IMG/VR virus record: IMGVR_UViG_3300044643_000369
Span: 1 to 21,301 of that record
From: a virus
Length of the DNA stretch: 21,301 bases
Reading direction: 5' to 3' (one strand)
Under the pieces are notes generated by a model. That model was given only the letters and a program-made list of their open reading frames with translations. It did no database searches and was not told where the DNA came from. Position 1 is the first letter of the stretch; every line of letters starts with the position of its first letter. Made by a program: the position numbers and the translations under genes. Shown in pieces: positions 11,694-13,354 of this stretch.

Positions 11694-11873
11694 ATGCACG
11701 TTGAAATACTTGAACAAAGATGCGCTGAAGCCTTGCTTGGGTACTCTCAAACAATGGCAGATGCTTATACAACCGAACCAGAGGACTTAGATGCTTCTAT
11801 TACTGCTTTGCTTGGCAGAACGCTAGAACTACATCTAAACCGCCAAATCAATTTGGAGAACCTTTTCAAATGA
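11694..11873 (+). CDS. small acidic phage protein (59 aa)
   Basis: The frame opens at ATG 11694 and its TGA overlaps the ATG of the winged-helix gene at 11870. The chain starts MHVEILEQRCAEALLGYSQT, continues MADAYTTEPEDLDASITAL, and ends in LELHLNRQINLENLFK. It is mainly helical with no membrane segment. No Shine-Dalgarno site precedes the ATG. The leader is pyrimidine-rich (cttctacctacttccttctt), so the true start could be the internal ATG 11754, or translation could be S1-dependent. Coupling to the next gene is the main support. Confidence 0.55.
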   Translation: MHVEILEQRCAEALLGYSQTMADAYTTEPEDLDASITALLGRTLELHLNRQINLENLFK

Positions 11874-12235
11874 CTCAAGCCATGATCATTAAAGCTCTAC
11901 AGAATGGGCCACTTACTTCACAAGAAGTCTGTGATTTAACAGGGATGCCTAAATCCTCTGTATTGTCCACAGCTAAGAAGTTGAGATACAAAGGTGAGTT
12001 AACCACAGAAGAGGTCAAGGTTGGTCGCTACAGAGTTGCCAGGTACACCCTTGCTGACCACTTGATTGAGAGTAAGCCAAAAGACGAAACTCGCTGCTTA
12101 CTAAACCCTTTTGACATCAGGAACGCCAAGGGTATCTTTAGTAAAGCAGAGTATGCGGTGATGAACGCACAAGCTAAACGATTGCTTGGTAGACCAAAAC
12201 CTGCAAAAGAGATCACAAATAATCAATTTATTTAA
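11870..12235 (+). CDS. winged-helix/HTH transcriptional regulator-like protein (121 aa)
   Basis: ATG 11870 overlaps the upstream TGA (ATGA). Residues ~1-55 read as a winged helix: MIIKALQNGPLTSQEVCDLT, then GMPKSSVLSTAKKLRYKGEL (recognition helix) and a wing 'EEVKVGRYRVARYTL'. The C-terminal ~60 residues contain 'DIRNAKGIFSKAEYAV' and a basic 'KRLLGRPKPAK'. This matches small phage regulators with an N-terminal MarR/GntR-like domain. It is encoded just downstream of repeat site A and directly upstream of the promoter and RNA element at 12245, so autoregulation or control of that promoter is a reasonable inference. Confidence 0.75.
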   Translation: MTQAMIIKALQNGPLTSQEVCDLTGMPKSSVLSTAKKLRYKGELTTEEVKVGRYRVARYTLADHLIESKPKDETRCLLNPFDIRNAKGIFSKAEYAVMNAQAKRLLGRPKPAKEITNNQFI

Positions 12236-12244
12236 AAAAACTTC

Positions 12245-12271
12245 TTGACATCTCTTTGTTTTGTGTATAAT
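12245..12271 (+). promoter_or_regulatory. sigma70-like promoter upstream of the structured RNA
   Basis: TTGACA (12245-12250) and TATAAT (12266-12271) both match consensus perfectly. The spacer is only 15 bp, shorter than the preferred 17, so strength is uncertain and an activator or repressor may modulate it. The expected start is near 12278. It lies 10 nt after the stop of the winged-helix gene, in AT-rich DNA, and nothing coding starts until 12799. Confidence 0.7.
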
Positions 12272-12277
12272 CCAACT

Positions 12278-12752
12278 TGTCTGAGTGGCATCAGGCGATG
12301 AAAAGAATTGAGAACCCCATAGATTCCTGTGTGGTCTTGCCTGACAACAGGCGAACTTTTGATTCTTTTCAATCGTTTGTTGTTGCTCTCGCCAAGAGCC
12401 AAGACCACAGAGTGATTTATGGGGTTTTTGCTTTTGGGGACTGTAAGGATTGCAGACCAAAGTTAGCTGCAAGTAAAGTAGGACTCAGAACCTAGCCATT
12501 AGAGACTGGACACAGGTAGACCGCTCGTAAGGCCGCCGTAACTGTGTTGAGAGGCAACGGGGGAACTATCCCAAGCCAAGCCCACATGAGTGACCCGAAA
12601 GGGGTGCAGGAACGGGCAGATAGGACGCTCTGAGGCGTGTAATCCTGCAAGCTATGCAATCAGTAAGGTATAGCCCAATGTTCGTCCCAGACTTGTCTGA
12701 AACTAGCATAGGTACTCACTAATCTTGTTAACTCAGGATTAGGTGAGTATTT
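12278..12752 (+). ncRNA. candidate large structured noncoding RNA, or structured operon leader
   Basis: About 475 nt between a consensus-like promoter and the next gene. By hand count, 91 of 160 bases at 12501-12660 are G/C (57%), clearly above the AT-leaning flanks. Nested pairing seen: AACCCCATA 12313-12321 with TATGGGGTT 12418-12426, extendable with wobble pairs on both sides; inside it TGTGGTCTTG 12330-12339 with CAAGACCACA 12400-12409; inside that CCTG/CAGG at 12340-12351 and GCTCT/AGAGC at 12385-12399. Downstream: TTGCAG 12450/CTGCAA 12467; ACACAG 12510/CTGTGT 12542; GGGG 12560/TCCC 12569; CCC-GAAA-GGG 12594-12603; TGCAGGA 12605/TCCTGCA 12643 enclosing ACGC/GCGT; GCTAT 12651/ATAGC 12670. 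It does not show the hallmarks I know for tmRNA, RNase P RNA, group I/II introns or 6S RNA. Confidence 0.6.
12713..12749 (+). terminator. long hairpin closing the RNA region (weak terminator or RNA 3' end)
   Basis: TACTCACTAATC (12713-12724) pairs with GATTA-g-GTGAGTA (12737-12749), a 12-bp stem with a single bulged G742 and a 12-nt loop. It is followed only by TATTTG, not a true U-run, so it may mark the RNA 3' end by processing or act as a partial terminator or attenuator before the operon that starts at 12799. Confidence 0.5.
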
Positions 12753-12798
12753 GCCAATTTGAACCCGACTGAACTGAACTAGCATATATAGGAAATGT

Positions 12799-13008
12799 AT
12801 GAACTACTTAGTTAACCCGAACAAACCTTCCTCTCGTGCTCACCTTTGGGATGATGGAGATACATACTGCAAGATGTATTTAACTGGTGGGATGAGAAAG
12901 AAAAAATACAGGGTTTATCCTGATTCACAGGACAGGGAAATTTGTTTAATGTGTGGGAATGTTTGGAAACAAATACACACATACAAGGATGAACATGGAA
13001 AAGTTTGA
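12799..13008 (+). CDS. small phage protein with CxxC (69 aa)
   Basis: ATG 12799 has AGGA 5 nt upstream (AGGAAATGT). The chain is basic: MNYLVNPNKPSSRAHLWDDG, DTYCKMYLTGG, then 'KKKYRVYPDSQDREICLMCG' and NVWKQIHTYKDEHGK. CLMC with Cys24 and the histidines could form a zinc site, similar to small zinc-ribbon phage proteins. It is the first gene after the structured RNA region and overlaps the next gene by 14 nt. Confidence 0.7.
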   Translation: MNYLVNPNKPSSRAHLWDDGDTYCKMYLTGGMRKKKYRVYPDSQDREICLMCGNVWKQIHTYKDEHGKV

Positions 13009-13354
13009 ATTATTTTGGGCAGCATGGCCTAAGTCATTTAGAAAAGGTGGCAAGGCTGCCTGTCTTGTAAAGTGGAAAAAGTACTACTGTGAAACCTGTG
13101 CAGATCAGATCATTAAGCACATTGAGTGGATGAAAACAACTGATGCTTGGAGAAAAGACGATGGTGCTTTTATTCCTGCACCTTTGGTCTATTTGAACCA
13201 ACAAAGATGGGATGGGGCAGAGATTCCAGAATCATTCGGGATCAAAGTTGAAGTGAAAATTGATCCTGCCTTGGCAAAGATTGAGGCCGACAGAAAAAAA
13301 GCCGCCCCTATGCCTGAACATATCCGAGCAAGACTAGCTGAACTAAGGAAATAA
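12995..13354 (+). CDS. replication-initiator/helicase-loader-like C-terminal domain protein (119 aa)
   Basis: The start is set at ATG 12995, with AAGGA 5 nt upstream. The in-frame extension to 12953 adds 14 residues lying wholly inside the previous gene. The sequence MEKFELFWAAWPKSFRKGGK, then 'ADQIIKHIEWMKTTDAWRKD' and DGAFIPAPLVYLNQQRWDGA, matches the conserved 'FxxFWxxYPrK.gK..A...W......W.kd.g.fIP.P.tyLNq.RWeD' domain. That domain is found at the C-terminus of phage replication initiators and DnaT/helicase-loader-like proteins. Here it stands alone, with a basic tail (PEHIRARLAELRK). It may help load the host helicase, but no ATPase or HTH domain is fused. Confidence 0.7.
   Translation: MEKFELFWAAWPKSFRKGGKAACLVKWKKYYCETCADQIIKHIEWMKTTDAWRKDDGAFIPAPLVYLNQQRWDGAEIPESFGIKVEVKIDPALAKIEADRKKAAPMPEHIRARLAELRK

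Follow-up and report, generated by a model that had tools for sequence, protein, structure and literature searches.

The question raised by this locus is what kind of gene lies behind its promoter. In the window, that is, the whole 21,301-nt stretch of viral DNA analysed here, the first-pass annotation had noticed perfect TTGACA and TATAAT hexamers followed by an interval without a convincing gene, and had proposed that this interval encodes an undescribed large structured RNA. We found that positions 12279-12786 contain a noncoding RNA gene that is widespread: it has relatives in more than 100 phage contigs, the carriers being freshwater phages. That we are dealing with an autonomous, noncoding and modular phage RNA gene is near certain. 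The locus is arranged as follows.

11870-12235, + strand: small HTH protein gene, the upstream context (weak MarR/HTH matches)
12245-12250 and 12266-12271, + strand: predicted sigma-70-type promoter, TTGACA and TATAAT with a 15-bp spacer
12279-12429, + strand: 5' module A of the RNA
12430-12786, + strand: 3' module B, highly structured, swapped for module C or D2 in relatives
12799-13008, + strand: small variable ORF, a CxxC protein in the window, replaced by other small ORFs in relatives
12995-13354, + strand: replication-initiation or primosomal-like protein (phrog_9474, E 1.6e-14)

The promoter hexamers are present as had been described and are conserved in the relatives that share the module; a consensus scan with 16-18-bp spacers omits the pair because its spacer is short. 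The + strand of 12275-12760 folds with an energy of -178.7 kcal/mol compared to -144.6 +/- 6.4 kcal/mol for shuffled sequences (z = -5.4), none of 100 shuffles being as good, whereas the fold of the minus strand is weaker (z = -3.4). The high G+C content, counted by hand as 57% over 12501-12660, was measured as 58% at 12500-12649. A reading frame of 72 aa (12277-12495) is not a gene, since 30 of the 46 homologues have a stop in it within the A region, in line with the first-pass annotation, which saw no convincing gene here; a Pfam search found no protein domain in it, and ARAGORN predicted no tRNA or tmRNA in the window. None of the 4227 families of Rfam 15 matched the window at the gathering score (best sub-threshold E values 0.14 and 1.1), and six relatives of the RNA had no match up to E 0.5. 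A likeness to a group I intron or other ribozyme noticed by eye (GAGACTGGACA...GGTATAGCCC) was dropped, as it had no Rfam match at E values up to 5. Strong covariation and a promoter of its own, together with the lack of an Rfam match and of a reading frame, support the proposal of an undescribed large structured RNA, which occurs in far more than this window.

A search with the neighbouring replication-type protein (12995-13354) yielded 80 related viral contigs. Pattern searches retrieved 16 stretches with the RNA pattern, 95 with the 5' hairpin, 19 with module D2 and at least 120 with the module C motif; some of these counts come from hand-built regular expressions, by which divergent members can be missed, and the collection contains near-duplicate contigs. 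BLAST comparison splits the region into two blocks, 12235-12442 and 12447-12799, which occur independently of each other. All 62 distinct sequences of the slot between the HTH and replication genes, a few of them contig-end fragments, carry recognisable modules, in the combinations A+B (as in the window), A+C or D1+D2. One of them was classed AD on a match to A that is promoter-proximal only; true A+D2 loci exist elsewhere. Up to position 12250, locus L032 shares 99% identity with the window, but beyond it a different RNA follows; thus modules are exchanged at the promoter. Two loci have shortened modules, L041 being without most of module A and L200 without the middle of module C; these may be natural deletions or assembly joins.

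Nucleotide searches against named phages with A+B, A+C and D1+X+C (X is an extra module, see below) found no match, nor did a search of plasmids with A+C, and no published description of the RNA was found in the literature searched (open-licence papers). The RNA gene is new to Rfam, to named phages and to this literature, and its presence in well over 100 environmental phage contigs points to a sizeable gap in the knowledge of phage RNAs.

Module A consists of a 5' hairpin followed by a branched one with a U-tract at its end, an architecture fixed by covariation. Its elements, with percentages referring to homologues, are the following.

12279-12296, + strand: HP1, 5' hairpin where the RNA is expected to start, of 6 pairs (100% paired in 46 homologues) and a conserved GUGGCA loop
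12300-12308, + strand: pseudoknot arm a' (GAAAAGAAU), in the linker, hypervariable; covaries with 12362-12370
12314-12324 with 12415-12425, + strand: P2, basal helix of the long branched hairpin, next to the U-tract; 99.6% paired, 7 of 11 pairs doubly changed somewhere
12330-12339 with 12400-12409, + strand: P2b, upper helix, mostly invariant GUGGUCUUG/CAAGACCAC; 98.7% paired in 46 homologues
12343-12352 with 12375-12384, + strand: P3, apical arm presenting arm a; 95.7% paired, 2 pairs doubly changed
12362-12370, + strand: pseudoknot arm a (AUUCUUUUC), hypervariable, at the apex (loop) of the branched hairpin; covaries with 12300-12308
12385-12399, + strand: P3b, apical arm GCUCU-CGCCA-AGAGC with invariant loop; 99.1% paired
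12425-12429, + strand: U5 tract (in full U5GCU4), candidate intrinsic terminator conserved in A modules

Over 46 distinct sequences, 98.4% of the cells of the drawn structure (50 pairs) are paired, and 17 pairs have changed on both sides. The covariation score was reached by none of 500 shuffles, and slid versions of the structure were at most 46% paired. The HP1 stem appears in the wider relatives as GUCUAG/CUAGGC, GUCUUG/CAAGAC and others. Of the features described in the first-pass annotation, the two nested helices (P2 and P2b) are real, and the T5 run closing the first domain is present, as are the two small hairpins within these helices, 12343-12384 and 12385-12399. That annotation had overlooked that a pseudoknot covaries, that there is a direct repeat and that modules are exchanged. 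The loops of HP1 (12285-12290) and P3b (12390-12394) contain UGGC and GCCA, respectively, both invariant, and might contact each other. Termination at the U-tract would release an RNA of about 150 nt. Because the U-tract hairpin is conserved in A-type relatives, the existence of a short (~150 nt) and a long (~500 nt) form of the RNA is plausible.

The most unusual part of the RNA is the pseudoknot. When its 8 pairs (12301-12308/12362-12369) are tested alone, 98.1% of the cells are paired and 105 are doubly changed; the covariation score is 0.757, compared to at most 0.10 for slid versions. All four Watson-Crick pairs occur at single arm positions. Arm a, the 3' arm, has 19 alleles in 126 loci and many more in wider relatives. 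The two arms of the same RNA pair at a score of at least 8 in 99% of 114 modules, arms swapped between RNAs in 10%; the median duplex energies are -23.4 and -13.1 kcal/mol, respectively. The arms change fast: their entropy is 1.05 bits as against 0.05-0.44 bits for the other helices. Between RNAs having 0-2 differences in 138 other columns, 28% of the arm sites differ, with both arms changing together, and 51 of the 63 such close pairs differ in their arms. The arms have undergone diversifying change at the RNA level with their pairing kept. Arms that evolve so fast and yet always pair are rarely seen, and are a sign that RNA pairing itself is under diversifying selection. A very divergent A module (L239:5653-5834, 48 bits) has a different apex and has kept the pseudoknot (GCCAAGAG with CTCTTGGC).

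What do the arms pair with? Several arm alleles contain G-U pairs, which favours RNA pairing over a pair of DNA operators; the operator explanation is disfavoured also by compensated length changes in the arms. A trans target elsewhere in the same genome was rejected, since 8 arm copies were counted and 13.9 +/- 3.4 expected; an arm therefore has its partner in its own RNA or in a sibling RNA. Pairing within one molecule (cis) and pairing between two (trans) leave the same covariation and cannot be told apart by it.

One way to read these data is that the pseudoknot is purely structural, the arm sequence drifting freely as long as it remains paired, and that the RNA has a role other than self-recognition, such as blocking a host defence. 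The roughly constant arm length (8-10 bp) is what one would expect of a fixed helix, the other helices are conserved in sequence, and the accessory, module-swapping distribution would suit an anti-defence or host-adaptation role. However, the arms change about 28-fold faster than the rest of the RNA and do so together, which is hard to reconcile with free drift, and we regard this explanation as quite unlikely.

The reading that we prefer, with a probability of roughly one in three (about 0.35, the modular RNA description included), is a self-recognition between RNAs of the same allele, exerted through the terminator that the RNA carries. Transcription initiated at the strong promoter would be attenuated at the U-tract hairpin; the pairing of a' with a may compete with this hairpin or reshape it, and the state of this pairing would set the level of read-through into the 3' module and the downstream genes. 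If another copy in the cell makes RNA of the same allele, that RNA would offer identical arms in trans and interfere. The arms would then serve as a self-recognition tag, in homo-immunity or incompatibility, and for such a tag selection would keep changing the arms while their complementarity stays. Covariation of the arms, their fast paired change, the difference between own and swapped pairing, the single copy per genome and the several genomic positions all point in this direction. The same logic recurs in D1, the other, unrelated-looking 5' module, in which the loop of hairpin 1 pairs with the apex of the U-tract hairpin, with covarying alleles such as GUGAGAA/UUCUCAC, GUAGGAA/UUCCUAC and GUGGUAG/CUACCAC; D1 modules elsewhere end in U6-U8.

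The working principle resembles P4/P1 RNA immunity and plasmid incompatibility RNAs. The P4 CI RNA and the C4 RNA of P1/P7 are phage leader RNAs with same-strand complementary segments, whose allele-specific pairing is linked to premature transcription termination. Here, too, same-strand complementary segments differ between phages with their pairing kept. Nevertheless, the RNA matches no phage antisense-RNA family in Rfam. P4, P1 and P7 immunity relies on Rho-dependent termination, whereas our RNA has a hairpin resembling an intrinsic terminator, at which termination is predicted; it has, in addition, large exchangeable 3' modules and is without a sign of lysogeny genes. A classical lysogenic immunity is doubtful, since 14 long relatives yielded no tyrosine integrase and the neighbourhoods listed showed no CI-like repressor gene next to the HTH gene. 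Lysogens in bacterial genomes were also considered; the sole exact match to the HP1 pattern among genome contigs lies in an apparent archaeal coding sequence and was judged to be due to chance.

The self-recognition model does not explain what the 3' modules and their direct repeats (r1 and r2, see below) do. A broader version, in which the RNA belongs to a widespread phage self/non-self system, the arms being an allele-specific identity tag between the RNAs of co-infecting phages and the exchangeable 3' modules its effector domains with an identical repeat pair, we consider doubtful. Small constructs would allow one to ask directly whether base pairing lets a phage tell its RNA from a rival's.

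If the arms pair between molecules, the RNA might instead be an oligomeric scaffold, a homo-multimer comparable to the GOLLD/ROOL cages or phi29 pRNA, hypervariability preventing mixing among co-infecting phages. In phi29 pRNA covarying loops are able to pair between molecules, and in one lineage of our phages the RNA gene adjoins the terminase; however, the secondary structure is different, these phages have ordinary large terminases and most copies of the RNA gene are elsewhere. GOLLD and ROOL are, similarly, large structured phage RNAs of undefined function with covarying loop contacts, some of which proved to be intermolecular; the GOLLD kissing loop was first found by covariation (PMC12286853). 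The large structured modules and the possible contact between the invariant UGGC of HP1 and GCCA of P3b in the alignment would fit such an assembly. Against this, our RNA is smaller, has no covariance-model match to GOLLD/ROOL and has hypervariable arms. Its modules are exchanged by recombination, and a wholesale exchange of 3' modules would be odd for a cage. A terminase neighbourhood is found in one lineage only. We think that a scaffold is unlikely, and GOLLD and ROOL, suggested as analogies by the first-pass annotation, are not homologous as far as tested, the analogy being one of function only.

The genomic surroundings bear on two other explanations. In 77 of the 88 loci with enough flank, the RNA is upstream of the replication-type gene, and it often follows a small HTH gene that is Cro/YdaS-like. 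In 5 others it is flanked by the large terminase gene on one side and a structural gene on the other, and in 3 it lies shortly before terminase genes. The location between a promoter and an operon, as annotated originally, holds in most relatives and fails in a second lineage, where the gene follows the large terminase. The slot behind TerL, followed among relatives of the L248 terminase, carries the A module in 3 and the D1 module in 18 to 21 cases; with no recognised RNA in 49 of the 73 scored, an essential role in this slot is not obvious. Each of the 19 A-type genomes tested carries the RNA once, and in D1-type genomes the A model matches nothing; the apparent second copies in a genome turned out to be matches to the palindromic reverse strand. 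The RNA gene is thus accessory: it has a promoter of its own and does not belong to any one operon. The ORF slot behind the RNA holds variable cargo, a different CxxC protein in L012 and L060 and an HNH-like endonuclease in L056.

One of these explanations is that the RNA is a cis-acting leader for antitermination or attenuation of the following operon, with no function in trans. It directly follows a promoter, is co-directional with the genes behind, and its U-tract hairpin precedes genes that read-through would reach. The put RNA of HK022, named as an analogy in the first-pass annotation, is likewise structured and directly follows an early phage promoter; it is ~70 nt long, has two stem-loops and occupies two sites per genome (PMC9378689). 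In contrast, our RNA is 350-500 nt long, present in one copy per genome, pseudoknotted and modular; as far as tested it is not homologous to put, and the analogy is one of function only. Moreover, the genes that follow differ (replication gene, structural gene, small terminase), the position behind the large terminase in the second lineage makes a dedicated leader of one operon unlikely, and a purely cis role gives no reason for the hypervariability of the arms. On balance this explanation seems improbable.

The other is that the RNA starts or controls DNA replication, as a primer or initiator similar to ColE1 RNAII, with the arms as compatibility determinants. The 77 loci just upstream of a replication gene speak for it, and there is a precedent in the RNA-based origins of extrachromosomal mycobacterial prophages (PMC7157519). 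ColE1 RNAII/RNAI and the mycobacteriophage initiator RNAs are structured RNAs upstream of replication functions and define compatibility groups (PMC7157519). On the other hand, no antisense partner RNA was recognised here, the gene is absent or elsewhere in many relatives, and in the second lineage it stands behind the terminase. A replication RNA would surprise us.

The exchangeable 3' modules and their identical repeats pose separate mechanistic questions. In module B of the window the following elements were distinguished.

12566-12623, + strand: long-range helix within B, CUAUC (12566-12570) with GAUAG (12619-12623); one pair A-U to G-C in 7 of 13 sequences
12701-12710, + strand: direct repeat r1 (AACTAGCATA), spacing 76 to r2
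12713-12749, + strand: distal hairpin of 15 bp between r1 and r2, in both the MFE and the centroid fold
12777-12786, + strand: direct repeat r2 (AACTAGCATA), identical to r1

Module B is nearly invariant in the 13 known sequences, a single covarying pair being visible (A12568-T12621, G-C in 7), probably the result of a single event; most of the drawn stems of B therefore remain predictions. The hairpin said to close the second domain is present, with 15 bp in place of the 12 bp described. In module D2 (37 sequences) 97.7% of the cells are paired over 35 pairs, 21 of them doubly changed, a pseudoknot of its own included, and in module C (28 sequences) 99.5% over 23 pairs, 15 doubly changed.

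The repeats r1 and r2 are the sole direct repeat of at least 8 nt in 12430-12830. Modules B and C both close with a block of about 75 nt between identical direct repeats. In C, a variable segment of ~8 nt after TGGCTCC recurs identically after the conserved 3' end TTCACCA; over 70 loci the longest common stretch is 7.9 nt for own repeats and 4.1 nt for swapped ones, and the start-to-start spacing has a median of 75 (10th-90th percentile 74-77). In C-type loci such as L012, L204, L128 and L248 the repeat sequence varies between phages and r1 equals r2 within each. An internal partner of r1/r2 was rejected, the best complementarity being equal to the control (5.97 vs 5.85). A role as guide to other genome sites was not retained either: the complement occurs 27 times against 16.7 +/- 4.9, a weak excess inflated by near-duplicate contigs. 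To our knowledge, the combination of hypervariable but always complementary arms, exchangeable 3' modules and an identical repeat pair has no counterpart in any described RNA.

Further variation was seen around the 3' modules. In L225, L235 and L249, D1 and C are separated by an additional structured module, X (GGAACTAGGTCGGG...CCGACCTAGTTCC). Behind TerL, the 3' modules joined to D1 in L300-L308, L311 and L312 are without a close match to B, C or D2 and are possibly new. In L032, L055 and their relatives a conserved hairpin (CTTGGAGAAGGT...CTATCCACCCTTGGAGAACC), which includes a near-repeat, lies 3' of D2, directly before the replication gene.
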